Assembly: GCA_033471095.1 (NCBI GenBank)
Contig: CP136752.1
Coordinates: 730,937-777,937, forward strand
From: Nitrosopumilaceae archaeon AB1(1)
GTDB taxonomy: Archaea; Thermoproteota; Nitrososphaeria; Nitrososphaerales; Nitrosopumilaceae
Reading direction: 5' to 3'
Length of the DNA: 47,001 nucleotides
Below the pieces are notes generated by a model. It made no database searches. It had not been told where the DNA came from and worked only from the letters and a program-made list of their open reading frames with translations. The position numbers and the translations under genes were made by a program. This document shows positions 4,987 through 32,207 of this stretch, one piece after another; position 1 is the first letter of the stretch, and each line of letters opens with the position of its first letter.

Positions 4987-5475
4987 ATGTTATATAGTGA
5001 GCATGAAATGTATGATATGTATGATATGACTGGTGAAATTTTATTATCCATCATAACTATTCTAGTTCTGATCGGTACAGTCCTTGTACATGCACATTAC
5101 AGTAATAAATTGGTTAAGCGCATAGATGATGAAAAAGTTCATAATGCAATTCCTTATCTTTCATTTAGAACTAACTTCGTAAAAAATGATTGTCAACGGG
5201 ATTCATATATAGTAAATTTAATAATTCAGAATCATGGCGGTCTAGCAAAAAATATAGATATAGAATTATGTTCAGACAAACTTACATTTAAAACAAAAAA
5301 CATTAAAATCTCATATTTAAAATCCAGTAAAGATTACACCTATTGCCCTTTTCAAGGAACTTGGAACGATAATAATGAAAATCATGATTCTAATATGGCT
5401 ATTATTTTTTCATACGAGGATATTTATAAAAAAGAATATCATTATGCTGTTACAATTAAATACGCACCAATATGA
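4987..5475 (+). CDS. Membrane-anchored protein of unknown function
   Basis: 162 residues. One hydrophobic helix (GEILLSIITILVLIGTVLV, about residues 16-34) is followed by a basic, charged stretch and a roughly 110-residue soluble domain rich in beta-strand patterns, including LIIQNHGGLAKNIDIEL. That pattern is common in single-pass proteins with an Ig-like extracytoplasmic or cytoplasmic domain. No catalytic motif is seen and the family is not recognised. It is the first gene of the accessory region and stands alone, with about 170-210 bp gaps on both sides. Confidence 0.55.
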   Translation: MLYSEHEMYDMYDMTGEILLSIITILVLIGTVLVHAHYSNKLVKRIDDEKVHNAIPYLSFRTNFVKNDCQRDSYIVNLIIQNHGGLAKNIDIELCSDKLTFKTKNIKISYLKSSKDYTYCPFQGTWNDNNENHDSNMAIIFSYEDIYKKEYHYAVTIKYAPI

Positions 5476-5685
5476 TTTTATCAACTTTAAAACTAAATCA
5501 AATTATCAATTATTCATATTTGGTTTATACTAGAATTCTGCGCTAATATTTTCTATCGGTTCTTACCATCAGTGACAATCCCTGAAACTTCTGATGGTTT
5601 ATTCTCAAGTATAAATCACATATTTAATAAAAATAATTTATTATATACTATAAATTAATTAAAGAGGTTCTCACCACCATACACT

Positions 5686-5889
5686 ATGACATACAAACAA
5701 GTTGATCTAATTCACAGACAAAGATATAATAAATCGGTTAAGCCTTGTTGGATAGCAGATGTTCTTAGAAAATATGGAAAAACTACACGTAAAGCGCCAA
5801 ATCGAATAGATATAGAACCGACAAACCCATGTCCTGATTGTTATTTTTCTAATGTTGAAAAAATTCTTAGAGAATTATGTATGATTTGA
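5686..5889 (+). CDS. Small basic Cys-containing protein, unknown
   Basis: 67 residues, basic in its first half (HRQRYNKSVKPCWIADVLRKYG), then a CPDC pair near the C-terminus and another Cys in ELCMI. Together with the first Cys these could bind zinc. The composition and KTTRKAPNR stretch suggest a nucleic-acid-binding small protein, but this is inference. A short leader after an AT-rich stretch (about 5625-5660) may hold its promoter. The family is not recognised. Confidence 0.45.
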   Translation: MTYKQVDLIHRQRYNKSVKPCWIADVLRKYGKTTRKAPNRIDIEPTNPCPDCYFSNVEKILRELCMI

Positions 5890-6082
5890 AACTGAGTAGT
5901 TTTAATGAAATTCTCTATTTATGAATAAGTCCCGATAACTTGACAATACCTGATGTCACTCTTCGTTCTTTAGTTTGGATTAGACCTGAATGACCACACA
6001 AGAAAAGTGGTAACGGGTTACTATGAGAGAATTTTCAATTTATATAATATGAGAGAATGATTAAGGTAAATTATGAGCAGAG

Positions 6083-7447
6083 ATGGGAAATGTGAATACG
6101 AAATCGAATATTCGATTATGTCAAACGGCAGAATATAAAACGTATGAATGCAATAGGAAGTGCCTAGACGATGGAAATTTTTGTTTATTTCATCATAAGA
6201 ATTTCAAATTAAATGAAGATAGAATTAGGGAAGAATTTGAAAAAGAGTTAGATCAAGTAATCATCTTAGGTGGAACACTTGAATTTATTGGATGTAAGAT
6301 TCCATCTATTACTCTACGTGAAAAGGAATATGATAACATATCCATATTTTTTAATTTTGCAGAATTTCGAGGTAGTGTCAAATTCATTGATGTAAAGTTT
6401 AAAGCAATGGATTTTTCCCATGCTAGATTTTCTGAAGGTATGTATGGTAAGAAACTTGATGTTGCAAATAGCTTTCGTTTTAACAATGTTAAATGTAAAG
6501 ATGAGATATCAGAACTTAAATTTGAAAATTGTAGTTTATCAGAAAATGATTTTATCGGTGGGAATTTTAAATCACTTAAATTTATAGATTGTGAATTAAA
6601 GAATACAAATTTTCAAGCAACACAATTTGTCGAATTGCGTGTACAAAATTGCACATTTGTAGGTAAAACAAATTTTTCTGAATGTGTGTTTTCAACAATT
6701 GCAGAATTTAGAAATGCTGATTTCAAAGAACAACATCTCATTAACTTTGGAGAAGATTTATCAAAAGTTTCTTTTGTGGATACGGATATTACACGGATAA
6801 AATTTAATGAATTTACATCGTGGGATGAAAATCATGGTTATACAATATTTGATGAAAGAAAATTTTTTGCTGATCCTGATAAACATAAATTATCTGTAGC
6901 TCTTACGGTTTATAGAAATCTTCGAGAAAATTATGAATTTCGGCTTATGTATGAGGAGGCTGGGAAATTTTTTATAGGAGAGATGAATTTGAGAAGAAAA
7001 TATATTGGATATATCAAAAATGATGACAATACAAAGTATAGAAGACGGCATGGATGTGTAATATTATCAAAATGTTATAGTATACTAGCAAAGTCTAGAA
7101 GACGTCATGGATATGTAATATTATCAAAATGTTATAGTATACTAGCAAATTATGGTGAGAGTCTACACAGAATTTTCTTATGGACACTTGGAATATCTGT
7201 TTTAACTATAATTTTCTTTTATATAGAATTAGACAGCTGTATGATAGATGAAATGATGTCAGGGAACGCAAATGTGGTATTTGATTCTAATAAATTATTT
7301 ATGGCGTTGAACAGGTATTTTGCATTGTTTTCTTATACCAATGAATTTAATCTGACCGATCATTTCTTTCGCCTTTTATTAATACCTATTTTAGGAATTT
7401 GGTTTATTACATTACGAAGAAAATTTGAAAGAAGATTTAGGCACTAG
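6083..7447 (+). CDS. Pentapeptide-repeat protein with C-terminal membrane helices
   Basis: 454 residues. The N-terminus has a Cys-rich zinc-type segment (CNRKCLDDGNFCLFHH), then a long series of A(D/N)LXX-like pentapeptide units (about residues 90-230, such as KLDVANSFRFNNVK and LKNTNFQATQF). A helical region follows, then two hydrophobic segments (LWTLGISVLTIIFFYIEL and FRLLLIPILGIWFIT) at the C-terminus. The architecture resembles pentapeptide proteins with a two-helix pore-like module. The true start may be the ATG at 6073 in another frame: that frame encodes KCEYEIEYSIMSNGR, which would complete the zinc site if one A near 6133-6140 were removed. It precedes the GTPase/GAP1 pair in the same direction and could be its membrane effector (inference). 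Confidence 0.72.
   Translation: MGNVNTKSNIRLCQTAEYKTYECNRKCLDDGNFCLFHHKNFKLNEDRIREEFEKELDQVIILGGTLEFIGCKIPSITLREKEYDNISIFFNFAEFRGSVKFIDVKFKAMDFSHARFSEGMYGKKLDVANSFRFNNVKCKDEISELKFENCSLSENDFIGGNFKSLKFIDCELKNTNFQATQFVELRVQNCTFVGKTNFSECVFSTIAEFRNADFKEQHLINFGEDLSKVSFVDTDITRIKFNEFTSWDENHGYTIFDERKFFADPDKHKLSVALTVYRNLRENYEFRLMYEEAGKFFIGEMNLRRKYIGYIKNDDNTKYRRRHGCVILSKCYSILAKSRRRHGYVILSKCYSILANYGESLHRIFLWTLGISVLTIIFFYIELDSCMIDEMMSGNANVVFDSNKLFMALNRYFALFSYTNEFNLTDHFFRLLLIPILGIWFITLRRKFERRFRH
7039..7152 (+). repeat. Tandem 57-bp duplication inside the pentapeptide-repeat gene
   Basis: Two adjacent 57-bp units (7039-7095 and 7096-7152) differ at only a few bases. They keep the frame and encode two copies of a 19-residue segment beginning SRRRHG and ending YSILA. 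It lies just before the membrane helices, so it lengthens the linker between the sensor part and the membrane part. Confidence 0.9.
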
Positions 7448-7567
7448 ATTCGATTGTTTAAATATATATGGTGATTATCAGATAACGTGAACAGGTAAAC
7501 ATCGACGCAGTTTTGATTATATACATTAGAGTAATATTTATTGGATAGACAATTAATAATTTTAGAT

Positions 7568-8524
7568 ATGAGTACACCAGAATTATTACAACAAATTCAA
7601 AATGGAATAGAAAAATATAAAGATTCAAAAATGGTGGCATTCCTTGGAGTAGCCGGATCTGGTAAAACTGTAATTAGTGCTATAACTGCTCGTACATTAT
7701 TTAAATCATTTATTCCAAATAGTAATGGAAAATGGTTAGGTGTATACACGAGTGGAGATCAAAAAATTAATGATATAATTCGCGATATGAAACGTGGCAA
7801 GTTTCCACCACATACTCCAGGAGAGGAGTACCCCGATCTTACTATTGAGATACACAATACGGAAGGTGTACCGGTGAAATTTGAATTAAAATTGAACGAT
7901 ATGTCCGGAGAGAATTATGAAACATTTTTGGTCGATGCATATCCTGATATCGATGAAAGACTAAATACGATTCTCTCATGTGGTGCTGATTATCTTGCAT
8001 TTGCAAAAAAATATGTGATTATAATTGACTGCGCAAAGATAGAAGATTGGGATACAGATATTGCATCTGTAAATAAGATGATTATGAATATTAGAAAAAT
8101 AAAGAACAAAATACACCATTTCGATGAAGATGAAAAGATGAAGGAAACTATTGCGATAATTTTTAACAAATCAGATTTATTGTCTAGAGATAAACAAACG
8201 ATTGCAGTAGTAGATGAATTATCTACAGACAAACAAGAAATTACAGTAGATGAATTATCTACAGACAAACAAGAAATTACAGTAGATGAATTATCTACAG
8301 ACAACCAAGAAATTACAGTAGATGAATTGGCTGATTTATATCTTGGTTTAAAATCAAGTTTAACTATAAATGTACCAAAAAATAATTATACATTCTTTAA
8401 ATTGTCAGTTCAATCGACTTCAATCGCCTCAAACAAATTAAAAGTAAAATTACCTTTATCATATACTGAATCAGAATATAATAAATTTATTTCATGGATT
8501 TTTGATGTAGATAGTAATGAATGA
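7568..8524 (+). CDS. P-loop GTPase of a GTPase/GAP1-type conflict system
   Basis: 318 residues from the ATG at 7568 (a TTG at 7541 would add nine). The Walker A loop GVAGSGKT is at residues 27-34, NDMSGE near 110-115 fits the switch II/DxxG position, VIIIDCAK is a further core strand, and FNKSD at about 199-203 is the G4 base-recognition motif. The set indicates a TRAFAC-type GTPase, probably of the group found with GAP1 proteins (double-GTPase-like, DO-GTPase). After G4 there is a 12-residue repeat region. The stop codon overlaps the start of the next gene by 8 bp, so the two are translationally coupled. Confidence 0.7.
   Translation: MSTPELLQQIQNGIEKYKDSKMVAFLGVAGSGKTVISAITARTLFKSFIPNSNGKWLGVYTSGDQKINDIIRDMKRGKFPPHTPGEEYPDLTIEIHNTEGVPVKFELKLNDMSGENYETFLVDAYPDIDERLNTILSCGADYLAFAKKYVIIIDCAKIEDWDTDIASVNKMIMNIRKIKNKIHHFDEDEKMKETIAIIFNKSDLLSRDKQTIAVVDELSTDKQEITVDELSTDKQEITVDELSTDNQEITVDELADLYLGLKSSLTINVPKNNYTFFKLSVQSTSIASNKLKVKLPLSYTESEYNKFISWIFDVDSNE
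8213..8328 (+). repeat. 36-bp tandem repeats inside the GTPase gene
   Basis: Three in-frame units of 36 bp (8213-8248, 8249-8284, 8285-8320) plus an 8-bp partial copy encode the 12-residue unit DELSTDKQEITV. A degenerate unit precedes them. The repeats sit directly after the G4 motif and give an acidic, probably exposed insertion whose length can change by slippage without loss of frame. Confidence 0.93.
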
Positions 8525-9584
8525 ATTAAATATAGAACAATTTATTTATACAAGCACACATATTAAAAAAAGTGGATATCAGATTGTTGCACAAAGTGAA
8601 GGCATCACACGGAATATTATATCTCAATTAAAATTATATATGTATCCAATTGGGGTGGAACTAAAATTTTTTAAAGAATCAAGATCTTTGGTTTTACTTG
8701 AAGATGATCTAGTAGCATATAGTAGAATTAAAAATGTGGGGATTGGTCACGATGGTAGAAGCAATACATTGTATAATCACACAATGATTATTTCAAAAAA
8801 TGATTTCAAAAAATGTAATAATGATAGTAGAATATTTGATGAGTATTATAGAGAAGATAGAAGAATTCGAAAATTATCAACACTAAGAATTGATTCTAAA
8901 CAAGTACTAAATCCAACAAATCTAAATATAGCAATACCATTATTGAATGAAATTTTATATTCTATATTCACTGATAAAAAGATCGCCATTTTATTAGATG
9001 ATCCAGAACTACCACAAAAAATTATTGCGTTTTTACCAATATCCATGCGTCTGATATCTTTCTCAACACATGTCGTAGATCCAAATAAACAATCAAAGTA
9101 CAATTTTATTTTAAATGCTAAATTAAACAAATTTATAGTAAATGAAGATTACAAAATAATCTCTCCAGATAAAATATCACAAAATTATGAAGAGTCATCA
9201 TTGAAGAAGAGTGTCTCAGATTATGTAAATTGGATTATACAATATGATCATAAAAAAATACAAGAAATCCATGATTTGTTTGAAAAAAATCCCGGTGATT
9301 CAAATAAAAATAAATTGATACTCGCAACTAATTACATACAATTTAAAGAATCTCTTGATAAAGAACAGAAATCTCAGTGTGCAAATAATATACTTGAAAT
9401 ACTAAAAGAATTTAACCCAATTATATTTAAAGAATATTTTGATAAAATTAAAAATTCATTAGAAAAATATCAAAAAATCGAAGACATGAAATTACCTCAA
9501 ATAGATAGTTTCGAAAATTTTAACGAGGCACTATTTTATTATAGTAAATATTTAAAAAATATTGTCATATTGTTTGAAAAATAA
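8517..9584 (+). CDS. GAP1-like GTPase-associated protein, short form
   Basis: 355 residues. The N-terminal part (IEQFIYTSTHIKKSGYQIVA, then LVAYSRIKNVGIGHDGRSN and LYNHTMIISKNDF) matches the pattern I recall for GAP1 N-terminal domains: an initial (F/Y)T(S/R)xxxxxSGYQxVAxS strand, a later G-RDGR-N segment and an HT(L/M)(I/L)I strand. The rest is alpha-helical with no recognised motif. It appears short compared with many GAP1 proteins, which have extra middle and C-terminal domains. The 8-bp overlap with the GTPase gene fixes the start and supports a two-protein complex. Confidence 0.62.
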   Translation: MNELNIEQFIYTSTHIKKSGYQIVAQSEGITRNIISQLKLYMYPIGVELKFFKESRSLVLLEDDLVAYSRIKNVGIGHDGRSNTLYNHTMIISKNDFKKCNNDSRIFDEYYREDRRIRKLSTLRIDSKQVLNPTNLNIAIPLLNEILYSIFTDKKIAILLDDPELPQKIIAFLPISMRLISFSTHVVDPNKQSKYNFILNAKLNKFIVNEDYKIISPDKISQNYEESSLKKSVSDYVNWIIQYDHKKIQEIHDLFEKNPGDSNKNKLILATNYIQFKESLDKEQKSQCANNILEILKEFNPIIFKEYFDKIKNSLEKYQKIEDMKLPQIDSFENFNEALFYYSKYLKNIVILFEK

Positions 9585-10095
9585 AAAGCAAGAATGTCGA
9601 TCAAAACTTAATTAATACTTGCATATAGAATATGTAAAAGATTATGCTCAAGAACTAGTAAACTAGTACTCTAAGCAATGGGCAATAGAGATTAGATATT
9701 CAGTACACAACATAGTAAGATCTCAAACTATTAGTAGTGATCCAGCCGTCCGAATATTTTATTTTCTGTATGGATTGCTGGTATGTAATGTGTGCACTGT
9801 TCAAAATGAGGGGCATTTGGCAGGGATGTTAAATCAGGGTTCATGAAAATTAAATTATTATGACTCTTATTCGTATACATATGTCCCGAGTTTAACACTA
9901 GACTGAAAAGTCCCGAGTTTTAATCAGTGTAATATTTTATCATCCTCTTGCAAAGACGCTAGATTCTTGAAGAGTATGTTTTGACTCCTTCCTTTGCAGA
10001 TTTGAGGTAATTTAACTAATTTTTATAACCCCGTTGACTATAAGTTAACTAATGGTTAGTCTTAAATAACTAAATATGTATATAATTAGTTAATT
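9585..10095. other. Intergenic region before the first Fic gene
   Basis: 9585-9798 shows no convincing gene. From 9799 on it is the conserved leader of the duplicated Fic unit, nearly identical to 13511-13807. It contains a GTCCCGAGTTT direct repeat (two copies about 30 bp apart, the second decayed in the other unit) and, next to the gene, a set of TTAACTAA boxes. Confidence 0.7.
10012..10095 (+). promoter_or_regulatory. TTAACTAA box array at the Fic gene 1 promoter
   Basis: TTAACTAA occurs at 10012-10019 and 10045-10052, with related AATAACTAAA at about 10065-10074. The inverted form TTAGTTAA lies at 10086-10093, ending two bases before the ATG. The array covers the expected TATA and initiation region, so a protein bound there would block transcription. 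Copy 2 has the same boxes plus one more. An operator role is inferred. Confidence 0.55.
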
Positions 10096-11205
10096 ATGAC
10101 TCTAGTGAAAAAAACCATTAAAGGAAAAGTTTACTACTATTTTCAAGATTCTGTCAAACTTGATGGAGTCTATAAAGTGATCAATACTTGTGTATGCAGG
10201 GCGGATGCATCACAACACAAATTAGCAGAAGAAAAACATTCTGCACTTGCAATTCATTTACCAAAAATTTTCAAATTAATGTCTACTACATGGAAAAATC
10301 AATACAAATTTGATTTTTTTGCAGATTCTACCGATATGGATTATTTGAATAGTAATTTAGTTTTACAATCATTTCTTTTTACACATTTAAAAAAATTACT
10401 TGATCCACAAGAATTAGATGATTTTGAAAAAATATTGTTTGTAAAATATGTATATGGAACCACCGCAATTGAAGGAAATACATTGACAGAGGCTGAAGCA
10501 TCTAAACTACTTGCAAGTAACCTTACTCCAAAGAATAAAACTATAAATGAAATATTTGAAGTTGGAAATTACAATCATATTAAAAAGTATATGAATGAAT
10601 ATTCTGGAAATATTACTGAAAAAATGATTTTACAAATTCATAAACTTTTGATGACTGGAATTTGTGGATATGATGGAAAATTAATCAATGCAGGAGAATA
10701 TAGAACGAGTAGAGCAATACTTTTGGAAATTGAACATACTCCATCTCCGCCAGAAATGATTTCTTCCCAACTAAAACTCCTTGTTGCTGAATATACAAGT
10801 AAATTAAAGGATGGAATTCACCCATTTGAGGCTGCCTCGTATTTCCATCAGAAATTTGAAGAGATTCATCCATTTCAAGATGGTAATGGTAGAGTGGGAA
10901 GAGAATTACTCAATTATATGTTGGTAAAAGAAGGATTTCCACCAATCTATATTACTCCAGAATATCGAACTGAATATCTAAATTCATTAGTTCAAGGAAA
11001 TACTGATAAGTATATTCCATTATTTACTTTTTTGTTAACACGAATGGGTGCAACATTTTCATATTTTTTTACTAAAACTAACCTGTATTCACTTTTCAAA
11101 AATGATAATATGAGAAAAATTATGAACGATATGGTTGGAGAGGAAACATACAAAACAATTTTGGCTGAGTTGGAAGAAACATCAAAGAAAATAAAACTAC
11201 CTTGA
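10096..11205 (+). CDS. Fic-domain AMP-transferase, class II type, copy 1
   Basis: 369 residues. Fic enzymes transfer AMP or similar groups from nucleotides to hydroxyl side chains of target proteins. The catalytic motif HPFQDGNGRVGR starts at residue 258 (HPFx[D/E]GNGRxxR complete). An inhibitory-helix motif TTAIEGN lies at 122-128 and matches (S/T)xxxE(G/N), so this is an N-terminal-inhibited (class II) Fic whose Glu126 would keep the enzyme off until released. The first 60 residues (YYYFQDSVKLDGVYK) form an extra N-terminal domain with no known function. It ends with SKKIKLP and is directly followed by a MITE-like palindrome. Regulation probably runs through the TTAACTAA boxes. Confidence 0.9.
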   Translation: MTLVKKTIKGKVYYYFQDSVKLDGVYKVINTCVCRADASQHKLAEEKHSALAIHLPKIFKLMSTTWKNQYKFDFFADSTDMDYLNSNLVLQSFLFTHLKKLLDPQELDDFEKILFVKYVYGTTAIEGNTLTEAEASKLLASNLTPKNKTINEIFEVGNYNHIKKYMNEYSGNITEKMILQIHKLLMTGICGYDGKLINAGEYRTSRAILLEIEHTPSPPEMISSQLKLLVAEYTSKLKDGIHPFEAASYFHQKFEEIHPFQDGNGRVGRELLNYMLVKEGFPPIYITPEYRTEYLNSLVQGNTDKYIPLFTFLLTRMGATFSYFFTKTNLYSLFKNDNMRKIMNDMVGEETYKTILAELEETSKKIKLP

Positions 11206-11208
11206 TGA

Positions 11209-11286
11209 GGTTCTGTAACATCTTTGGGAATTATTCATAGAACCATAGAGAAGAAATAGTTGAAACACTTGATAATGTACATAACC
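11209..11286. mobile_element. MITE-like palindromic repeat, copy 1
   Basis: A 78-bp element beginning GGTTCTGTAACATC and ending ATGTACATAACC, imperfect terminal inverted repeats. It starts 3 bp after the Fic stop codon. The internal part (ATTCATAGAACCATAGAG...) is shared with copies at 14921, 27267 and 31734. There is no coding capacity, so it is non-autonomous. Confidence 0.85.
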
Positions 11287-12057
11287 GCTAGTTCGAACAT
11301 TTATTAATGAGATGGTCATTTAATATACATGGGATATTATGTAAAGGGTGATTGATATCATAAAGACCCACCCAAATGTAATTTAAGCACATCTAATGCT
11401 AAATACACATCAAGTACGCCTAGTGGAAAAGAAAAATGTAATATTTGCTTTGGTCTTATAACAAGGTAAATTCATTCTAACATATTTATATTATTTTTTG
11501 TCAATAAATAACTAATCTTTGTTTATTATCTTTACAAAGTGGTTTAACCGAAATCATGATATTATTGGCTATTGTGTATTGTAAACAATAAAAAATAAAC
11601 CTCCAAAAATCAAAAATGTTGGAATATACTTTGCTAGACACGGAATATTGCATACAATTGCTATCCATGATATAGAGCAAAAATCTGATCTTACCAAGAT
11701 TGTAAAATGGTTTGAATCGATTGCAGAACAATTAAAAAAAATGGAAAATAATTAATCAAATACGTAGAGATTACAAATATGAATTGCGATATGTGAAGTA
11801 CGAGATTGTTCTATAGGTGTTTCTGCCAATCTGAACGAACACTATTCTGTTCACAATTTGGGTGATTTCACAAGGGAGTTCAATTAGGATATGTCTTGAA
11901 TAGTTTATGTGTTCAACTAGTTTTGTTTTAGTAAAATGTATGCTGTCATATTTAATTAGGATTTTATTAACTCATAACAATAATTTTTCATTGGAAAGAA
12001 GAACAACACCACCACTCACACATAATCTTATAAATCAAGAATTTACGAATGTAATGG
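11287..12057. other. Intergenic region with gene remnants
   Basis: About 770 bp without an intact gene. A reading stretch around 11360-11466 encodes a Cys-containing fragment (CNLSTSNAKYTSS...KCNICFGLITR) ending at a stop but with no start. A second remnant is at 11585-11755. Upstream of 12058 a frame continuing into the HEPN-TPR gene may be an N-terminal extension separated by a frameshift. Confidence 0.5.
11585..11755 (+). pseudogene. C-terminal remnant of an unidentified gene
   Basis: An open stretch between two stop codons encodes about 56 residues that read like a genuine protein end: NVGIYFARHGILHTIAIHD, then LTKIVKWFESIAEQLKKM. No start codon or upstream continuation in frame is visible. 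The family is not recognised. It is best explained as the tail of a decayed gene. Confidence 0.45.
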
Positions 12058-13167
12058 ATGGAGTTTTTTTCGTTAAGAAATCTACTAAATACAGAGAAAC
12101 AACATGAAAAACATTATGTAATTATACGACTTGTTACTGTATTTGAACAATTTTGTAGACAAATAATATCTGAACAAATTAAAAATAAAAAATTTAAAAA
12201 ACTCCCTAATGAAATAACTTTAAAAAGTCAGTCTCTTGATAATTTAAAAATACTTTCAAAGGAACTTATAATTTCATCATCATACTCATTTCAAAGTGTA
12301 AATTCTATTTCTAATCTTAAAGATTATGATATACAAATTGTTGATGATGATCTATTAGCAGACATGGACAAATTGTTTACAAGTAGACATGATGTAGTAC
12401 ATACTGTAATGCCTACCAAATATAATATAAATAACGGCTATGATATAACTGAAAAACTTATTCTTGACATATTAGAAAAATCAGTTCTTGGATGTCAATC
12501 TTTTTATGCGTTTAAAGGAAATTATTTGTCTAATACTAATAGTAAAATGGCATTAGAATGTTATGATGAAGCCATTGCTTTAAATCCAAATTATGTTGAA
12601 GCATGGGTTGGAAAAGGCATCGTATTATTCTATACAGATAAATTTAAAGAAGCATTAAATCTCTTTGAGAACTCTCTTACTTTAAAACCAAATTATGTTG
12701 ATGCGTGGCTTTGGAAAATATATACATTATGTAAATTAGGCAAATTTGATGAAGCGTTAGAGAGTGCTAACAAAGCCATTGCTTTAGATCCAAATTATGG
12801 TGAAGCATGGGTTGGAAAAGGTATCGTGTTATACTATATGGATAAATTTAAAGAAGCACTAGAGATTTTTGAAAAATCTATTACTTTAATACCAGATAAT
12901 GTCGGACCGTGGCTTTGGGAAATAGATGTATTACGTAAATTAGGCAAATTTGATGAAGCGTTAGAGGGTGCTAACAAAGCTATTACTTTAAAACCAGATT
13001 CTGCTGAAGCGTGGAATCATAAAGGAATGATATTATCCAACCTTCAAAAATTTGAAGAGTCACTAAAATGCTTTGAGAAAGCTATTACCTTAAAACCAAC
13101 TTATGTTGAAGCAATACAAGGTCGGAATACTGCATTATCTAATCTTGGTAAACGTGATTCTATGTAA
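12058..13167 (+). CDS. HEPN-like domain plus TPR repeats
   Basis: 369 residues. Residues 1-130 are helical and hold SRHDVVHT (Arg110...His115), the Rx4-6H signature of HEPN ribonuclease domains. From about residue 150 there are roughly six TPR units (SKMALECYDEAIALNPNY, KFKEALNLFENSLTLKPNY and so on), including two almost identical 68-residue super-repeats. The likely role is RNA cleavage or a scaffold controlled by the TPR array. It lies between the two Fic genes. The ATG at 12058 follows a T7 tract. The frame before the tract (INQEFTNVMDGV) would join naturally to SLRNLLNTEKQ if one T were missing, so the N-terminus may be longer. Confidence 0.72.
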   Translation: MEFFSLRNLLNTEKQHEKHYVIIRLVTVFEQFCRQIISEQIKNKKFKKLPNEITLKSQSLDNLKILSKELIISSSYSFQSVNSISNLKDYDIQIVDDDLLADMDKLFTSRHDVVHTVMPTKYNINNGYDITEKLILDILEKSVLGCQSFYAFKGNYLSNTNSKMALECYDEAIALNPNYVEAWVGKGIVLFYTDKFKEALNLFENSLTLKPNYVDAWLWKIYTLCKLGKFDEALESANKAIALDPNYGEAWVGKGIVLYYMDKFKEALEIFEKSITLIPDNVGPWLWEIDVLRKLGKFDEALEGANKAITLKPDSAEAWNHKGMILSNLQKFEESLKCFEKAITLKPTYVEAIQGRNTALSNLGKRDSM

Positions 13168-13363
13168 TTATCGTACACTGTTCCCAATTCGACGCTTTTT
13201 GGAATCTTGCTCAACTAGGAATTTATTATAGAATATTTTGGGAGGGAATTGTTAAACATAAAGAGTCGAATTGAACATTAAATTGAAAAGATCTAAGTTT
13301 GGAAAAATATAAAAAATTACATATGCATATTAATAGTTGCATAATTTATTTTTAAAAAGAAGA

Positions 13364-13459
13364 TTACTTGTGTGGATTATCGCCTGATGGATTATCATTT
13401 TTACTAGCTCCACCAGAATTTCCGTCGCCGCCACCTTTGCCAGCTTGTAAACATTTCAT
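13364..13459 (-). CDS. 31-residue Gly/Asn-rich micro-protein
   Basis: A minus-strand ORF reads MKCLQAGKGGGDGNSGGA then KNDNPSGDNPHK. It is hydrophilic, glycine-rich and has one Cys. A TATA-like CTTATATAG lies about 30 bp upstream, as expected for an archaeal leaderless gene. Its composition resembles the second micro-ORF at 23073. Function is unknown; chance cannot be excluded for so short a frame. Confidence 0.4.
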   Translation of the reverse strand: MKCLQAGKGGGDGNSGGASKNDNPSGDNPHK

Positions 13460-13723
13460 ACTATATTTTATTACTATAACTATATAAGATTTTTTTTTAA
13501 GAATTATACCGTTCAAAATGAGGGGTATTTGGCAGGGGTGTTAAATCAGGGTTCATGAAAATTAAATTATTATGACTCTTATTCGTATACATATGTCCCG
13601 AGTTTAACACTAGACTGAAAAGTTCAGAGTTTTGAGCAGTGTATAATGTTTTATCATCCTCTTGTAAAGACGCTAGATTCTTGAAGAGTATGTTTTGACT
13701 CCTTCCTTTGTAGATTTAGAGCA

Positions 13724-13807
13724 TTAACTAATTTTTACAATATCGTTAACTAAAAGTTAACTAATGATTAGTCTTAAATAACTAAATATGTATATAATTA
13801 GTTAATT
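13724..13807 (+). promoter_or_regulatory. TTAACTAA box array at the Fic gene 2 promoter
   Basis: TTAACTAA occurs at 13724-13731, 13746-13753 and 13757-13764, with the inverted TTAGTTAA at 13798-13805 just before the ATG. The middle box is degenerate in copy 1 (TTGACTAT). The boxes stay conserved while nearby bases differ, which supports a binding function. Confidence 0.55.
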
Positions 13808-14896
13808 ATGACTCTAGTGAAAAAAACCATTAAAGGAAAAGTTTACTACTATTTTCAAGATTCTGTCAAACTTGATGGAGTCTATAAAGTGATCAATACT
13901 TGTGTATGCAGGGCGGATGCATCACAACACAAATTAGCAGAAGAAAAACATTCTGCACTTGCAATTCATTTACCAAAAATTTTCAAATTAATGTCTACTA
14001 CATGGAAAGACCAATACAAATTTAATTTTTTTGCAGATTCTATCGATATAGATTTTTATAATAATGTTTTAGCTTTACAATCATTTATTTTTACACATTT
14101 AAAAAAATTACTTGATCCACAAGAATTAGAGGATTTTGAAAAAATATTGTTTATAAAATATGTATATGGAACCACCGCAATTGAAGGAAATACATTGACA
14201 GAGATTGAAGCATCTAGACTACTTGCAAGTAACCTTACTCCGAAGAATAAAACTATAAATGAAATATTTGAAGTTGGAAATTACAATCATATTAAAAAGT
14301 ATATGGATGGATATTCTGGAAATATTACTGAAAAAATGATTTTACAAATTCATAAACTTTTGATGACTGGAATTTGTGGATATGATGGAAAATTAATCAA
14401 TGCAGGAGAATATAGAACGAGTAAAGCAATACTTTTGGGAATTGAATATACTCTACCTCCGCCAGAAATGATTTCTTCCCAACTGAAACTCCTTGTTGCT
14501 GAATATACAAGTAAATTAAAGGATGGAATTCACCCATTTGAAGCTGTCTCATATTTCCATCAGAAATTTGAAGAGATTCATCCATTTCAAGATGGTAATG
14601 GTAGAGTGGGAAGAGAATTACTCAATTATATGTTGATAAAAGAAGGATTTCTGCCAATCTATATTACTCCAGAGAATAGAACTGAATATCTAAATTCATT
14701 AGTTCAAGGAAATACTGGCGAGTATATTCCATTATTTACTTTTTTGTTTACACGAATGGATGCAACATTTTCATATTTTCTTACTAAAACTAGCTTGTAC
14801 TCACTTTTCAAAAATGATAATATGAGAAAAATTATGAGCGATATGATCGGGGAGAAAACATACAAAACAATTTTGGCTGAGTTGGAAGAAACATAG
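13808..14896 (+). CDS. Fic-domain AMP-transferase, class II type, copy 2
   Basis: 362 residues, about 90-95% identical to copy 1 by eye. Both the catalytic HPFQDGNGRVGR and the inhibitory TTAIEGN motifs are intact, so it should be active and self-inhibited. A TCA-to-TAG change removes the last seven residues (SKKIKLP) present in copy 1; this tail is outside the Fic core. Differences cluster around residues 75-90 (SIDIDFYNNVLA against STDMDYLNSNLV), which may alter partner or target recognition. It shares the leader and boxes of copy 1. Confidence 0.9.
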   Translation: MTLVKKTIKGKVYYYFQDSVKLDGVYKVINTCVCRADASQHKLAEEKHSALAIHLPKIFKLMSTTWKDQYKFNFFADSIDIDFYNNVLALQSFIFTHLKKLLDPQELEDFEKILFIKYVYGTTAIEGNTLTEIEASRLLASNLTPKNKTINEIFEVGNYNHIKKYMDGYSGNITEKMILQIHKLLMTGICGYDGKLINAGEYRTSKAILLGIEYTLPPPEMISSQLKLLVAEYTSKLKDGIHPFEAVSYFHQKFEEIHPFQDGNGRVGRELLNYMLIKEGFLPIYITPENRTEYLNSLVQGNTGEYIPLFTFLFTRMDATFSYFLTKTSLYSLFKNDNMRKIMSDMIGEKTYKTILAELEET

Positions 14897-14920
14897 AAGA
14901 AAATAAAACTACCTTGATGA

Positions 14921-15000
14921 TATTCTGTAACATCTTTGGGTGTTATTCATAGAATTATGGAGAAGAAATAATTGAAACATTTGATGAATGTTATGGAACC
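14921..15000. mobile_element. MITE-like palindromic repeat, copy 2
   Basis: An 80-bp element with ends TATTCTGTAACATC and GAATGTTATGGAACC. It lies between Fic gene 2 and the convergent KAP NTPase gene and abuts the KAP stop codon, so it could act as a two-way terminator hairpin. Same orientation as copy 1. Confidence 0.85.
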
Positions 15001-16386
15001 TCAAACCATATTATTTAAAATATTTGTTATTCTACGGTAATACTTAGTGATAGTATTGTATCTTGTACTTTTGTTAAATTCTAGTGGGAAATCTTTATTA
15101 AATTCTAACTCAAAATCATTGGCAAGCTCTGATAAAATTTTAAATAATTCTGACTCTTTTTCTATTTTTAGTAATAACTCATATACTTCATGTGTCATAA
15201 TTTCTGGTAGAATTTTTATATCTTGTAATTTGAAAGTATTCATTCCTTCTCTTCTTGGTTTAAAAGCAAACACTAATTTTTTTAAATTTTCAAATATTTC
15301 ACATTTATTACATAATGTGGATACTGTGATTAAATTACTCGGTTTGCGTTGAATCTCTCTAGCAAAATCTGGATGATATGATACCAATAATATCCAGCAA
15401 CATAATATCCTAAAATTAAATAAGAACTTTATGTTTATTACTTCCACCGAACTTCCTTCATCTGCCCAAGTTAGCAAATTAACATATACCAGATTTAACA
15501 TTCGTTTTATTTTTCGTGGGTTATATGGTAAAATATTTACTAAAATGTCAACATAAACCTGATCAAATGTGGGTATCAATTTAAAAATGAATGTTTCTAT
15601 TTGTGTAGGTGATTTTTCGGGTAATGGAATTATAAGTGGAAATAACTTTTCTAAGTATTCCCTACCTTCGTTCTTTCCCAAATCTGAACTATATCTTAAT
15701 TCTAATGCCCTTTCTAGTCTCAATATATCAACAGCAATTACAACAATAGTATTTTTAACAATCGTAAATAATTTAATAGATTCTAGAATTTTTATAATAT
15801 TTTCGGCAGAACATCGATCTAAATCATCTATGAATATAATTATTTTCTCGTCTCCGATTAATTCTTCCAATTGAGATGTTAACGTTTCAACATCAGTAAT
15901 ATTTTTTGCATAATCATCAAAATTTTTCTGTAAATCCTCAAGACTAATACTTAGAAAATTTCGAAGAGTTACATCTGTAACTAATTTAACAATATTAAAT
16001 AATTTTTTATTATTTTTATCTTTTTCTCCACCAACCTCATTTTTAATTTTTACGAATAATGAAATTGTAACATCCATTTTTTCATATTCCAATGGATTAA
16101 ATAAAATTAATTTTTGCTTTTGATTCTTTTCTTTGATTTCATCACGGATCATTTTCAAAACTGTAGTTTTACCCATGCCCCAAGGAGCATTAATTGCAAT
16201 AGTAAATGGAGTTATAGCCCCTTGATCCAGTAAATGTGAACAAATATTCTCCGCAAATTCTTGAGAACCAAAAGTATCTTTTGTTGTGCCAGGTTGATCA
16301 GATAGTAATTTCATACTTTCTAAAATCTGATCGATTTTTAGATTTAATCTCTTATTATTATAATGAGCTCGGCGTCTAGGTTGCAT
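15001..16386 (-). CDS. KAP-family P-loop NTPase
   Basis: 461 residues from the ATG at 16386 (a TTG at 16395 is possible). Walker A is APWGMGKTT at residues 67-75 and Walker B is IIIFIDDLDRC at 182-192, followed by IVVIAVD; this is the KAP pattern of the STAND/AAA-like group. The helical C-terminal half contains NILPYNPRKIKRMLN, typical of KAP proteins. There are no clear membrane helices between the Walker motifs, unlike many KAP proteins. KAP NTPases occur in prokaryotic defence loci; a defence role here is inferred from the surroundings. A GGTTCTGTAAC terminal-repeat fragment lies at about 16456, upstream of its start. Confidence 0.85.
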   Translation of the reverse strand: MQPRRRAHYNNKRLNLKIDQILESMKLLSDQPGTTKDTFGSQEFAENICSHLLDQGAITPFTIAINAPWGMGKTTVLKMIRDEIKEKNQKQKLILFNPLEYEKMDVTISLFVKIKNEVGGEKDKNNKKLFNIVKLVTDVTLRNFLSISLEDLQKNFDDYAKNITDVETLTSQLEELIGDEKIIIFIDDLDRCSAENIIKILESIKLFTIVKNTIVVIAVDILRLERALELRYSSDLGKNEGREYLEKLFPLIIPLPEKSPTQIETFIFKLIPTFDQVYVDILVNILPYNPRKIKRMLNLVYVNLLTWADEGSSVEVINIKFLFNFRILCCWILLVSYHPDFAREIQRKPSNLITVSTLCNKCEIFENLKKLVFAFKPRREGMNTFKLQDIKILPEIMTHEVYELLLKIEKESELFKILSELANDFELEFNKDFPLEFNKSTRYNTITKYYRRITNILNNMV

Positions 16387-16537
16387 TGACCTCAAATAAA
16401 ATCCAATTCTATTTAATTTTTGTCATAATTATAATTTAAAAATGGTTGTATTTGAGGTTCTGTAACTCTTCGACGCATATTCTCAAATGGAATTTATTTC
16501 AAAAATATGAAAACTTGTGTTCATAGTCTAATCAAAA

Positions 16538-17342
16538 TTAAATATATGGATATATTTTGTCAAAGTAATGTATATTATTTATAAATTTGAGTATATTAAC
16601 CAATTTATAATTTTTATTAATATTTACAATTTTTGGCTTATCTACCATTTCTAACTGTAAAGGATGTTTAGAACCATAAAACGGTGCAACCGCAATACGA
16701 AATTCATTTTCAAATTTGAATTTATTAGGTTTGGAAAATATATTCCTAAACATTTCATCATTACTAATACCACGTAATTTATCAAAGTCATTACTGTCAG
16801 TATTTATTTTTTTGTTACAATGTAATATTAAACTCTTTTCAGACACATATTTTATCTGTTCAGCAAAATATCCTACTTGGAATTCAGGATCATTCAACTT
16901 AAACAATTCTTTGTGTTTTGATTGAAAATCATCCTTTGTAAGTGACGCAGCATAAATTTCACGCAAGTATAGTGCAAATAACTTTATGAAATCATCAGTA
17001 ATTGTCCAGTATGAATTCGTGTTAAAATGTTTTTTATATGAATTCAAGATATCAGAATTAAGTACCGGACAGTAAGATAAGTCTAAATATGTGAATATTT
17101 GCATCTATAGAATTTGTAATGGTGTATCGTTTTACATTCTTATTCCAAGGTATATCGAATTTAGACGTATCTTTTTTATCTATAATTTTCATATTACGCA
17201 TTATTTTTTCCAACTTTCCTTCTGTAGGATCCTTTCGTATGTCTGACTCACACTTCTTTCTATATTCATGTAATGTACCAAATTTTATTGTGTTACAATT
17301 TTTAGTTATATCATATTCCTCATCACAAAACTTAACATACAT
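16538..17342 (-). pseudogene. DUF2971-like gene broken by a frameshift
   Basis: The first part (17342 down to about 17085) encodes MYVKFCDEEYDITKN, IKFGTLHEYRKKCE and DPTEGK. The second part, one base out of phase, encodes TYLDLSYCPVLNSDIL through FSKPNKFKFENEFRIAVAP to the stop at 16538. Together they give about 265 residues with the (I/L)KFGTLxxYR...EG start and the KFxxENEFR end seen in DUF2971-like proteins. The function of that family is unknown; members occur in defence regions. The shift lies within 17058-17104. Either the gene is dead or the assembly has one base too many. Confidence 0.65.
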
Positions 17343-17958: not shown

Positions 17959-18549
17959 TAATTTATTTTTCAAGATATTCTAGTTTAAATATATTATGAA
18001 TGAGATGAAAAATAAGCTCTAACCATATTCAGAAACAAATATTATAAAATATTGTAACATGTCAAATAACACTCTAACTCGGAATGTAGAATACATACTA
18101 TCTTTATTGAAAAAATACTAAGTTTAATTCTCTAATCTTAATTTGTGTCACATAATAATATTATGGGACAAAAATGTATGATCTCATGTCTAATGACTCG
18201 CAACGTATACTTTTCCATTATTTACACATGAAATTTTGGTGGACCTGACATCATATCAAAAATATGGCATAACAACGAAGTCATTTATATGAAAATACAA
18301 AACTTCGTTAGAATGTGAACAAAATATAAATATTTGAAGAATGTATGTTTACTCGTTTACTCTATCTCTTGTCATAGGTAATTTAATACGGATACATTGT
18401 GTAAATCATCAGTCACCTTACAGTCATAGAGTTGGTTCTGTTGCATCTTCGGGTGCTATTAATGATTCTGATAAATATGCTATAAAATATAGGTTACTTC
18501 TAAAAACGTCATGTGTAATTTTAAATATATTGACTTTTTAAATTTAATC
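17959..18549. other. Intergenic region before the AbiV-like gene
   Basis: About 590 bp without an intact gene. It holds a terminal-repeat-like GGTTCTGTTGCATCTTC at 18434-18450. A 20-residue frame at 18059-18121 is probably chance. The stretch before 18550 is AT-rich and could carry the AbiV promoter. Confidence 0.5.
18434..18456 (+). repeat. IS-type terminal repeat, left copy
   Basis: GGTTCTGTTGCATCTTCGGG followed by TGC matches, in inverted orientation and with two or three mismatches, the sequence ending at 20223. Similar ends (GGTTCTGTTGCA) are known from IS6-family elements. A third, shorter copy (GGTTCTGTTACATCTTC) lies at 19424-19440. Confidence 0.65.
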
Positions 18550-19323
18550 ATGTCTGATGGTTCTAAAATTCATATTTTCCATAGAGAGATATGGGATGGT
18601 ATTAGACATAGTTCAAAATATGCAAAATCTTTAATGGATCATAGTGACATATTGCGTAAAAATTGTGAATATCAGTCAGCGATTTCATTAGCATGTTTAT
18701 CTTTTGAAGAATCATCTAAATGTGCACAGCTATGTAAGTTTCATTTTGAGAAAAAAGACATTACAAAAGATTACTGGGATAATAATTTGCATAGTCATAA
18801 AGGGAAAACAAAATACTTTACCGAGCAATTATTATCACAGCAATCTTTGACTCGTGATGAATATGAGCAAACAATTAAGGGATTGAAAAATACTGCTATT
18901 ACCTATGATCAACAAACGTCATCACATTATGCGAATTTATTCAAGAAATTAGATATCTATGCTCGTAATTTTCACAAATTGAAATTATTATGTTTTTATT
19001 CTAATTGGGATGAAACCAATAAGAAATGGATTAGTTTTGAGGATATACCTGATAAAGAACATCTTGCTGATTTTGTTATAGATCATAGTAAAATGTTTCG
19101 TTATTTGAGTATGTTTAATGTTGAACGACTTGTTGTATCCGATTTTACGTTAGTACCAGATATAAAATATTGTAGCAAATGTAACAAAATCTGTATGGAT
19201 ACTGACAAATGTAGTAATTGTAATATTGTGCAATTGGATTCTGATTCTGAGGACAAGGATCAGGAGCAGTGTAACAAAGCAATGAATGATTTTATTAAAA
19301 ATTTTGCCCCAAAAATTAAATAA
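18550..19323 (+). CDS. AbiV-family-like protein with C-terminal zinc ribbon
   Basis: 257 residues from the ATG at 18550 (an in-frame ATG at 18511 would add 13). The segment CEYQSAISLACLSFEESSKC, with HA-type helices before and HKGKTKYF after, matches the HEPN-like AbiV pattern ((Y)xSAxxLAxLAxEExxK). AbiV proteins cause abortive infection by blocking translation in lactococci. The C-terminus carries CSKC...CSNC (about residues 209-227), a zinc ribbon I do not know from standard AbiV, then an acidic tail. It lies inside a pair of inverted IS-type ends and between two paralogous small genes. Confidence 0.65.
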   Translation: MSDGSKIHIFHREIWDGIRHSSKYAKSLMDHSDILRKNCEYQSAISLACLSFEESSKCAQLCKFHFEKKDITKDYWDNNLHSHKGKTKYFTEQLLSQQSLTRDEYEQTIKGLKNTAITYDQQTSSHYANLFKKLDIYARNFHKLKLLCFYSNWDETNKKWISFEDIPDKEHLADFVIDHSKMFRYLSMFNVERLVVSDFTLVPDIKYCSKCNKICMDTDKCSNCNIVQLDSDSEDKDQEQCNKAMNDFIKNFAPKIK

Positions 19324-22055: not shown

Positions 22056-22865
22056 ATGACACAAAATATTAATTTAGAACTGAAACTATTACTCACTTTG
22101 GAAGAGAAAGAATTATCATCATTTACCATTAATGATGCAAAGGATATCCTAAAAACCTCATCATCTTCTGTGTGGCATGTTTTGTATAGATTGGTACAAA
22201 AGAGAAGAATACATCGAATCGAACGTGGCAAATATCTGTTAATTCCTGCCAAAGCTGGTGTAGAGGGGAATTGGTCTGAATATTTTCAAATACTATTACC
22301 AAATCTTATTGATGTTTATTATATTGGATTTTACACTGCTATGGATTATTGGAATATGACTGAACAAATCCCTCAAACTGTTTTCGTTGCAACCACTAAA
22401 AGAAAACAAGATTTAGAATTTGGCTATCAAAATTATAAATTCATAACATTATCTGAAAAGAAATTTTTTGGTTTTGTACAAGAGAAAATATACAAAGATA
22501 ACTATTTCAATATCTCTTCTAAAGAAAAGACAATCATAGATGGTCTAACACATCCTGAATATTGTGGAGGATTAGTAGAGGTTCTCAAGGCTATGTGGAA
22601 TGCACGTGAAGAACTTGATTGGGGAATAGTTGTTAAAATGGCAGAACAGATAAAAATTGATGTTGTTTTAAAACGATTAGGATATCTACTCTCAATTCTT
22701 GATATTGAAAAAAATATTTCAGAGGAAATTAAAAATAAAATAAATAAAACTTCCTATCATTATCTTGATTATACGACTATTGCACCCAAAGTTGAGACTT
22801 CAAAAGATTATAAGTTAATAATAAATAAATCAAAAACTAGGTTGCTTGATTGGATGGATAATTGA
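22056..22865 (+). CDS. AbiEi-family antitoxin-like transcriptional regulator
   Basis: 269 residues. The N-terminal winged helix (FTINDAKDILKTSSSSVWHV then LVQKRRIHRIERGKYLLIP) and the C-terminal part (YYIGFYTAMDYWNMTEQIPQ, FVATTKRK, ISSKEKTIIDGLTHPEYCGG) match the AbiEi/COG5340 layout of type IV antitoxins. The usual AbiEii nucleotidyltransferase toxin is missing: the next ORF, starting at the overlapping ATG 22865, stops after 21 residues. The gene is nearly leaderless behind the palindrome at 22031-22055. Confidence 0.82.
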   Translation: MTQNINLELKLLLTLEEKELSSFTINDAKDILKTSSSSVWHVLYRLVQKRRIHRIERGKYLLIPAKAGVEGNWSEYFQILLPNLIDVYYIGFYTAMDYWNMTEQIPQTVFVATTKRKQDLEFGYQNYKFITLSEKKFFGFVQEKIYKDNYFNISSKEKTIIDGLTHPEYCGGLVEVLKAMWNAREELDWGIVVKMAEQIKIDVVLKRLGYLLSILDIEKNISEEIKNKINKTSYHYLDYTTIAPKVETSKDYKLIINKSKTRLLDWMDN

Positions 22866-28001: not shown

Positions 28002-28292
28002 TTATTGCAGAAATTTAATTTTCATATTAATAAAATCCAATGAAAATTTTTTAAATTTGAGTGAGTAAATCAACTTCTTATCATTCAAATCATATTTTTT
28101 TATGAGGATATCAGATTCGTGCAGGCGCTCAAGTTCACGATAAATAGTTTCTCTTCTTATTTTAGAATCATATTTCCCTCTAAAAGTGTTATAACAGTCG
28201 AACGCGGTCGTCGTCCTATTTTCTCCAACAATTTTAATTATTTTTATTCTATTAGAATTACTTAGCATCTTTCCAATTTTTTCAAGTTGCAT
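28002..28292 (-). CDS. Winged-helix transcriptional regulator beside the R-M genes
   Basis: 96 residues from the ATG at 28292 (an upstream alternative would reach 28325). A helix-turn-helix order typical of ArsR/PadR-like regulators is visible: LEKIGKMLSNSNRIKIIKIV, RRETIYRELERLHESDIL, then KKYDLNDKKLIYSL as the wing. It diverges from the restriction endonuclease gene with about 105 bp between, so it probably controls that promoter like a controller protein. Confidence 0.65.
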   Translation of the reverse strand: MQLEKIGKMLSNSNRIKIIKIVGENRTTTAFDCYNTFRGKYDSKIRRETIYRELERLHESDILIKKYDLNDKKLIYSLKFKKFSLDFINMKIKFLQ

Positions 28293-28397
28293 TATTTGAT
28301 CCTCGACACAAATTACAAACAACATGTGTTTAAATCTTGCACTTTGTTGTCAAACTTTGGATACAATATTCTAAAAATTCAGATATATAATTATAGC

Positions 28398-31811: not shown

Positions 31812-31820
31812 AAATATAGC

Positions 31821-31893
31821 GGGTCTAGAGGGATTCGGACCCTCGACAGCCGGCTTAAAAGGCCGGTCCGCTACCTGGCTGCGCTATAGACCC
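31821..31893 (-). tRNA. tRNA-Lys(UUU)
   Basis: The minus strand folds as a cloverleaf: acceptor GGGTCTA/TAGACCC, anticodon arm CCGGC-CTTTTAA-GCCGG with anticodon TTT, T-arm GAGGG-TCCGAAT-CCCTC. The D-arm closes with three good pairs and one poor one. There is no intron and no encoded CCA. The 3' end faces the accessory region, a common integration site. Confidence 0.95.
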
Positions 31894-32046: not shown

Positions 32047-32121
32047 GCCCTTGTAGTATAGCCCGGTCTAGAATTCGGCCCTGTCACGGCTGAGACGCGT
32101 GTTCAAATCCCGCCGAGGGCG
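32047..32121 (+). tRNA. tRNA-Asp(GUC)
   Basis: Acceptor GCCCTTG/CGAGGGC (one wobble pair), anticodon arm CGGCC-CTGTCAC-GGCTG with anticodon GTC and one G-T pair, T-arm GCGTG-TTCAAAT-CCCGC with a T-C mismatch in the stem. G at 32121 is the discriminator and CCA follows at 32122-32124. A TATA-like TTTAAAATAA lies upstream. The weakened T-stem and anticodon stem are unusual. Confidence 0.88.
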
Positions 32122-32207
32122 CCATTATTTTATTAAATTATGATACCAATGATCTTATACACAAACTGATAATCTATATTTTTAAATCCCAATGATTACT
32201 AAATTGT

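Follow-up and report, generated by a model that had tools for sequence, protein, structure and literature searches.

What does a GTPase gene that overlaps a GAP1-like gene do when it is preceded by a gene for a pentapeptide-repeat membrane protein in the genome of an archaeon? The question is raised by three genes between positions 6083 and 9584 of a 47,001-nucleotide stretch of Nitrosopumilaceae archaeon AB1(1) (contig CP136752.1, positions 730,937 to 777,937 of the forward strand; hereafter, the window), which an original prediction had described as a putative three-gene, abortive-infection-like system. On balance, the evidence tilts towards an archaeal version of the DO-GTPase/GAP1-N2 type of conflict system, in which a constant GTPase-GAP1 pair is combined with an exchangeable partner, here a pentapeptide membrane protein that would stop the infected cell. 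The locus has the domains of such a system, a tight GTPase-GAP1 pair, a partner that is exchanged among relatives and a setting in a defence island; we infer that its function is anti-viral.

All three open reading frames (ORFs) are present in the order and on the strand originally described (+). The first encodes a pentapeptide-repeat protein of 454 residues with two membrane helices (6083..7447, +); its first ATG lies 10 bp downstream of position 6073, where the gene had been taken to begin. The second encodes a DO-GTPase2 protein of 318 residues (7568..8524, +). The listed ORF (7541-8524) matches DO-GTPase2 (PF19993) with 34.3 bits (cut-off 27), and translation starts most likely at the ATG at 7568 and not at the TTG at 7541, because the closest homologues begin with MSxxx. 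The third encodes a protein of 355 residues (8517..9584, +), of which residues 6-94 (8532..8798, +) match GAP1-N2 (PF20013) with 25.7 bits (cut-off 24), so that the proposed GAP1 identity holds at the level of a sequence-profile match over the Pfam cut-off. The stop codon of the GTPase gene (8522-8524) falls within the start of the GAP1 gene, which confirms the predicted overlap of 8 bp (8517..8524, +). The two-helix membrane end ascribed to the pentapeptide protein was likewise recovered as hydrophobic segments at residues 364-382 and 424-442.

The case for a constant pair with an exchangeable partner is based on nine core loci, namely seven GAP1 loci from six of 250 genomes of the window's own family, the GTPase of genome G413, which was found through a pentapeptide search and is followed immediately by the end of its contig, and a contig labelled Candidatus Paceibacter (L034), which may be mis-binned. 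An intact pentapeptide two-helix gene is located 5′ of the GTPase gene in three of the nine (the window, G493 and the second pair of G516); a fourth locus has a clear remnant and a fifth a doubtful one. In G493, the pentapeptide, GTPase and GAP1 genes follow the order of the window; in the second pair of G516, the pentapeptide gene is adjacent in divergent orientation. The clear remnant, immediately 5′ of the G413 GTPase gene, is 76 residues long and matches the C-terminal part of the pentapeptide protein (E 1.6e-6), and the doubtful one lies 5′ of the GTPase gene of the first G516 pair (E 0.019). Thus, the co-occurrence of the pentapeptide gene with the pair, which the original prediction had put forward as a three-gene system, extends to other genomes as an optional association, not as an obligatory one.

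In three further loci, other proteins occupy the partner position. A RelA/SpoT-like gene (PF04607, E 3.8e-20) is found in G162, and nucleotidyltransferase-like genes, a label that rests on Pfam matches below the cut-off, are found in G362 and G528 (49% mutual identity over 461 residues). These three partners (L007:10125-11108, -; L012:290-1717, +; L044:6598-8721, +) have in common a C-terminal domain of ~110 residues that occurs in no other frame of the 14 stretches compared. Such a domain would be anticipated if all of them docked to the same core, and we interpret it as the part that docks to the GTPase-GAP1 pair. No Pfam model matched this domain, and its identification with the GAAD adaptor (Kaur 2020) was dropped for the same reason. 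In the Paceibacter-labelled contig, no ORF of at least 60 residues is present within the 436 bases 5′ of the GTPase gene; a membrane protein gene (L034:2672-3370, -; MARVEL match under the cut-off) faces the GAP1 end and is a possible partner. In the first G516 pair, a protein of 1198 residues combines a GAP1-N2-type part with a UvrD-type helicase and a PD-(D/E)XK nuclease domain in one fusion (L046:1652-5248, +), with a DO-GTPase gene directly 5′; its GAP1 part fits the profile derived from three sequences, yet reaches only 15.3 bits against the Pfam GAP1-N2 cut-off of 24. This fusion indicates that a GAP1 protein can itself carry an effector. Taken together, the nine loci fit a "constant switch, variable effector" arrangement in which the partners would be the effectors, and the originally proposed GTPase switch acting with a membrane partner agrees with this pattern. 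Two further neighbourhoods may be recorded. In G413, the interval between a helical protein gene and the pentapeptide remnant and GTPase gene contains a membrane gene of the 8xMP type and a TIR gene of the ThsB type (L062:1380-2374, -), which are perhaps a replacement effector set. In G493, a gene for a 1077-residue protein with phospholipase D (PLD) and SNF2-type helicase domains (L045:7812-11045, -) is located near the three-gene locus.

The association of the pentapeptide gene with the pair is above chance, and is real but optional. Among the 250 family genomes, a GAP1 profile built from three proteins found six genomes (seven loci) and a profile of the pentapeptide C-terminal part found eight; three genomes contain both (hypergeometric P 4e-4), and in all three of these the genes are immediate neighbours. 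A lower value (P 1.5e-5) was set aside because it counts G413, which was itself found through the pentapeptide search. The GTPase gene is located beside the pentapeptide gene in four of the eight genomes (one as a remnant) and not in the other four (G303, G096, G505 and G156). In G505, the pair-less pentapeptide gene is followed by a short-peptide gene and then by a radical-SAM maturase-like gene, as judged by eye (L060:8264-11424, +).

Beyond the family, the distribution is narrow. In the phylum samples, GAP1-N2 was found in the window's own family only (three of 398 genomes with PF20013, three of 394 with the profile of eight rows). DO-GTPase2 was matched in 22 of the 398 genomes, two of them over the Pfam cut-off, by a search that missed the frameshifted GTPase of G162; 18 of the 22 sub-cut-off rows end by profile position 69, in the P-loop region, and were set aside as generic, the longer rows being those of G356, G360, G284 and G258. 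Three further genomes (G192, G215 and G046; E 0.004-0.0095), which came up when a single GAP1 sequence was searched with a more permissive threshold, were dropped as noise. No relative of GAP1 or of the pentapeptide C-terminal part was detected in the viral contigs searched, and neither GAP1 nor the GTPase had a match in plasmids; a Halalkalicoccus plasmid gave one weak pentapeptide match (E 1e-5). A scan of named genomes by exact peptide patterns, which is a sample and not a census, yielded two loci from 39 candidate stretches.

The pentapeptide protein has a composite architecture. Its repeat region (residues ~97-230; 6371..6772, +) is matched by pentapeptide models of both Pfam and NCBIfam, with residues 146-212 matching Pentapeptide_4 (Pfam; E 1.5e-11, 44.6 bits, cut-off 38). 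Pentapeptide repeats are binding surfaces without enzymatic activity. A C..C..CxxH motif near the N-terminus (residues 13-38; 6119..6196, +), the residues of which would possibly bind a metal, is found in six of the seven pentapeptide two-helix proteins, and in the seventh it lies upstream in another frame. An in-frame tandem duplication of 57 bp (2.1 copies by Tandem Repeats Finder; 7032..7153, +) is located just 5′ of the membrane part, which comprises helix 1 (residues 364-382; 7172..7228, +; hydropathy 2.01) and helix 2 (residues 424-442; hydropathy 1.61) followed by the basic C-terminus RRKFERRFRH (7352..7447, + including helix 2), both helices being called from hydropathy. This basic C-terminus is kept across the alignment of seven rows and is somewhat altered in G096 and G156.

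The top NCBIfam match of the PENTAPEPTIDE protein (6083-7447) is HalA (NF051894; E 7.7e-8, residues 141-420), with a score of 31.9 bits where the cut-off is 250. No NCBIfam match was obtained with just the last 230 residues, and a Qnr model scores nearly as high (28.4 bits; QnrVC E 1.4e-6); therefore, the HalA signal mostly reflects repeat composition, and identification of the protein as HalA was rejected. The G493 homologue has no NCBIfam match and the G516 homologue reaches 11.2 bits to HalA. For the repeat region, solved Qnr and MfpA structures were matched by profile. The two-helix pore domain with a selectivity filter, Ion_trans_2 (PF07885), was not found at E up to 5, a limit at which the HMMER filters drop most weak matches. 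A structure model built from the single sequence had a mean predicted local distance difference test (pLDDT) score of 35 and was useless, and no fold was drawn from it.

The GTPase has the expected motifs, with residues counted from the ATG at 7568: by motif reading, a P-loop (G1) GVAGSGKT at residues 27-34 (7646..7669, +), a G3/Walker B motif DMSGE at residues 111-115 (7898..7912, +; also from the alignment) and a G4 motif NKSD at residues 200-203 (8165..8176, +). In the alignment, tree, plasmid search and motif reading, the sequence used for the window GTPase began at 7571 and thus lacked the first codon. The D, S, G and E of DMSGE are invariant in all eight aligned GTPase rows; G413, which is outside the alignment, has DMAGE. 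Between G4 and a C-terminal PLSY..Y...ISW motif lies a stretch that varies from 55 to 171 residues among eight GTPases and that in the window accommodates an in-frame tandem repeat of 36 bp (3.3 copies by Tandem Repeats Finder; 8209..8328, +). The G162 GTPase contains its own, different repeat (ATPE units) within the same stretch.

The GAP1 protein of the window, the shortest among the unbroken GAP1 proteins seen, shares 29-39% identity with seven relatives. Alignment of the eight rows (window included) has 21 invariant columns, among them Arg81, Arg105 and Arg178. Beyond residue 94, no Pfam match was obtained at E up to 1, with GAP1-M and GAP1-C among the domains sought. A model built from three sequences is fair over residues 1-110 and poor beyond 223: residues 141-220 have block pLDDT values of 60-83 and are partly conserved among relatives, and residues 223-355 are below 50. 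In this partial model, the N-terminal domain weakly resembles a longin fold. When residues 1-123 were searched with Foldseek, the only two matches below E 0.001 were FLCN-FNIP2 (1.1e-4) and the Lst4 longin domain (5e-4, probability 1.00); with a root-mean-square deviation of 31.9 Å for FLCN-FNIP2 and query TM-scores of 0.20-0.21 for the two longin matches, there is no single rigid fit of the model to FLCN-FNIP2. From E 0.02 onward, Bcs1 AAA proteins are mixed among the longin-type rows. A second aligner (VIA) placed Lst4, FNIP2, two Asgard proteins (a roadblock-longin protein and a Rag-like GTPase), TRAPP, VAMP7 and DENND1B at Z scores of 5.1-5.5 across 90-116 residues, a range in which similarity may be merely a common arrangement (Z below 8; best GAP1 Z 5.5). 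The top 20 are mostly longin and roadblock proteins, followed at Z 3.4-4.6 by PAS/LOV domains (the same fold class), TagF and beta-lactamases. The GAP1 profile searched against solved proteins gave no noteworthy match and no solved longin or GAP1 structure, with four matches at E 0.1-0.8 that are mostly designed proteins by name.

We offer GAP1-N2 as a longin-like GTPase regulator, on the strength of this model, as a lead and not as a result. Eukaryotic longin domains have been traced to prokaryotic MglB-type GTPase-activating domains (PMC3521125, 2012), which makes it plausible that a longin-like regulator should be paired with a GTPase in a prokaryote. The main text of Kaur 2020 (PMC7159879) mentions neither longin nor DENN. 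It is also tempting to speculate, as a rather long shot, that a true longin-type GAP1-N2 would make the locus a minimal prokaryotic immune circuit, in which the regulator sets a TRAFAC GTPase that gates a pentapeptide channel resembling HalA and, in the sister loci, either an alarmone synthetase or a helicase-nuclease. If so, the control logic of eukaryotic GTPases in the style of FLCN, GATOR and DENN would be present in archaeal anti-virus defence.

The locus is embedded in what we read as a defence island. In the source genome (1.46 Mb, one contig), the G+C content is 38-39% at 3-5 kb of the window and drops to 26-31% between 5 and 32 kb, interrupted by a rise to 33-36% at 20-22 kb around a GSDH-like gene, and the AT-rich stretch ends near the genes for tRNA-Lys (31819-31893) and tRNA-Asp (32047-32124). 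By Pfam and PADLOC, the stretch contains two Fic genes, a TPR gene, a KAP NTPase gene, AbiV-type HEPN, AbiEi and GmrSD-type genes and two DNA methylase genes; matches below the cut-off are a HEPN domain in the TPR gene and a weak BsuBI/PstI-type nuclease. The two Fic genes (10096-11205 and 13808-14896) are on the same strand, share 91% protein identity and flank the TPR gene (12058-13167); recombination between them could remove the intervening stretch. The KAP NTPase gene (15001-17104, -) matches the PDC-S20, QatA and PifA models of PADLOC and adjoins a weak DUF2971-like gene on the same strand. The AbiV-type, AbiEi-type, GmrSD-type, BsuBI/PstI-type and methylase genes lie within 18511-19323, 22056-22865, 25224-27266 and 28287-31630. 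A clean empty site in G013 was considered and rejected: four left-flank genes are conserved together there and the right-flank genes tested do not adjoin them, so that no junction is shown.

How might such a locus work? The N-terminal domain of GAP1 would bind the GTPase and set its GTP/GDP state. An infection cue may then alter this state, either directly or via the variable C-terminal part of GAP1, whereupon the switched GTPase-GAP1 complex would release or assemble the pentapeptide protein, the two-helix end of which would disturb the membrane and halt the infected cell. In the relatives, the same switch would fire the RelA/SpoT-like alarmone enzyme, the nucleotidyltransferase-like protein or the GAP1-fused helicase-nuclease.

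Several observations weigh against this reading. The four genomes with a pentapeptide gene that stands alone (G303, G096, G505 and G156) have neither GTPase nor GAP1 in the surrounding 16-18 kb and no GAP1 genome-wide; thus, the pentapeptide protein can work without the switch. It does not have the ~110-residue C-terminal domain of the other partners, so that it either docks differently or acts as a non-effector. The 120 bp between the end of the pentapeptide gene and the GTPase ATG at 7568 make separate promoters for the two genes possible; TATA-like stretches seen by eye at ~6039-6047 (before 6083) and ~7517-7524 (before 7568) have little meaning at 28% G+C. The GTPase of the window has no zinc ribbons at its N-terminus (there is no Cys ahead of the P-loop, the first residue of which is 27), PADLOC gave no match for the pentapeptide, GTPase or GAP1 protein, and no fibronectin type III (FNIII) protein of the kind tied to GAP1-N2 systems was found over the Pfam cut-off among 20 island proteins, the rest of the genome not having been scanned; the gene at 4987-5475 was rejected as an FNIII component because its match (E 0.023) is under the cut-off. 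Frameshifts disrupt the GTPase gene of G162 and both the GTPase and GAP1 genes of G528. Finally, in trees with long branches (nine GTPase rows, eight GAP1 rows), the only well-supported split of the GTPase tree separates the window, G413 and both G516 rows from G493 and the RelA- and nucleotidyltransferase-linked rows, and the sole well-supported split of the GAP1 tree sets both rows of G516 apart from the remaining six. The pentapeptide partner therefore occurs in both GTPase groups, where it was either kept or regained, and the topologies do not reveal the number of partner swaps.

Other explanations of the locus can be given. The pentapeptide protein may be a sensor or membrane anchor, the repeats of which detect a ligand or envelope damage and recruit the pair, with the damage being done by the C-terminal part of GAP1 or by an unlinked protein. 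We regard this as possible though doubtful: it accords with the non-enzymatic, binding nature of the repeats, with the fusion of one GAP1 to a helicase-nuclease, with the variable stretches in the GTPase and at the GAP1 C-terminus and with the placement of GAP1-N2 systems near the membrane in section 29 of Kaur 2020 (PMC7159879), and it is at odds with the more effector-like proteins (RelA/SpoT-like, nucleotidyltransferase-like) that occupy the partner position in three loci and with the pentapeptide genes that exist without the pair. A mere coincidence, with the pentapeptide membrane gene arriving in the island independently of the pair, could appeal to the four of eight genomes without a nearby pair, to the tendency of mobile islands to gather unrelated genes and to the possible separate promoter; however, the fact that the genes are direct neighbours in G493, in the same order, and in G516, in divergent orientation, despite only 22-39% identity of the three G493/G516 proteins to those of the window, and the remnant just 5′ of the G413 GTPase gene leave chance neighbourhood largely refuted and very improbable.

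On the other hand, the locus may serve these archaea in signalling for membrane stress or housekeeping and not be anti-viral at all. A survey of phage-shock-protein operons reported a DO-GTPase family protein beside some operons, with a predicted role in membrane-related stresses (PMC11237479, 2024), and no anti-viral test of an archaeal member was found in the literature searched. Nevertheless, the rare and patchy spread (six of 250 family genomes; three of 394 in the phylum sample), the swapped partners, the broken copies and the island of defence genes make this reading unlikely. A conflict system with a constant pair and an exchangeable partner, here the pentapeptide membrane protein, is thus the reading that we retain. 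The archaeal loci represent the simplest form seen, with one GTPase, one GAP1 and one exchangeable partner, and are small enough for expression tests. They distinguish the constant parts from the exchanged ones, add partner types beyond the GAP1-N2 list in section 29 of PMC7159879, and point to a definite fold and activity for GAP1. Should the switch prove to gate the membrane protein, GTP would drive an alternative to the control of membrane effectors by nucleotide messengers.

It remains to compare the locus with known systems. Qnr and MfpA are soluble gyrase-binding proteins. They resemble the repeat region of the pentapeptide protein, which differs from them in its N-terminal Cys/His motif and two membrane helices. 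The Hailong system (Tan 2025, via PMC12657230 and PMC13275509) employs HalA, which is described as an ion channel that poly-dA adducts made by HalB block (PMC13275509). HalA is the best NCBIfam match of the pentapeptide protein, and a layout of repeats followed by two helices may be common to both, but the score is far below the HalA equivalog level (31.9 vs 250 bits); furthermore, no HalB-like gene was seen, there being no Pfam match to a nucleotidyltransferase among the ten proteins scanned at 4987-17104. The longin and roadblock regulators of GTPases (FLCN-FNIP2, Lst4, GATOR1 Nprl2, DENN and the prokaryotic MglB) resemble GAP1 in that it is paired with a GTPase and that longin folds are the best matches of its partial model; these scores are weak, no sequence match to a solved longin protein accompanies them, and the GTPase of the window is a TRAFAC DO-type and not a Rag, Rab or Arf protein.

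The closest relatives are the GAP1-N2 systems, described as predicted conflict systems in which DO-GTPase and GAP1 form a regulating switch with variable effectors (Kaur 2020, eLife, PMC7159879). The novelty in archaea that the original prediction had suspected is thus divided: GTPase-centric cores are already known from "a few archaea" (PMC7159879), whereas the pentapeptide partner is absent from the GAP1-N2 list of its section 29, which comprises tubulin, HSP70/GrpE, kinase/PP2C, SLATT, FGS, GYF and FNIII proteins. The RelA/SpoT-like and nucleotidyltransferase-like partners and the UvrD-nuclease fusion are not on that list either. In the main text, pentapeptide is mentioned three times, always for other systems, UvrD is absent and, among the matches listed (12 of 59), the mention of RelA concerns MoxR-vWA systems; the supplementary tables may hold a pentapeptide example. 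The window locus also differs in having one GTPase, a short GAP1 and a GTPase without N-terminal zinc ribbons, which are usual, not universal, in GAP1-N2 systems (PMC7159879). It shares with these systems a DO-GTPase with DxxGE, a GAP1-N2 gene downstream and a constant core with varying, often membrane-bound partners. SLATT, a predicted pore-forming two-helix protein, is among the GAP1-N2 effectors (PMC7159879) and therefore provides a precedent for a membrane effector.

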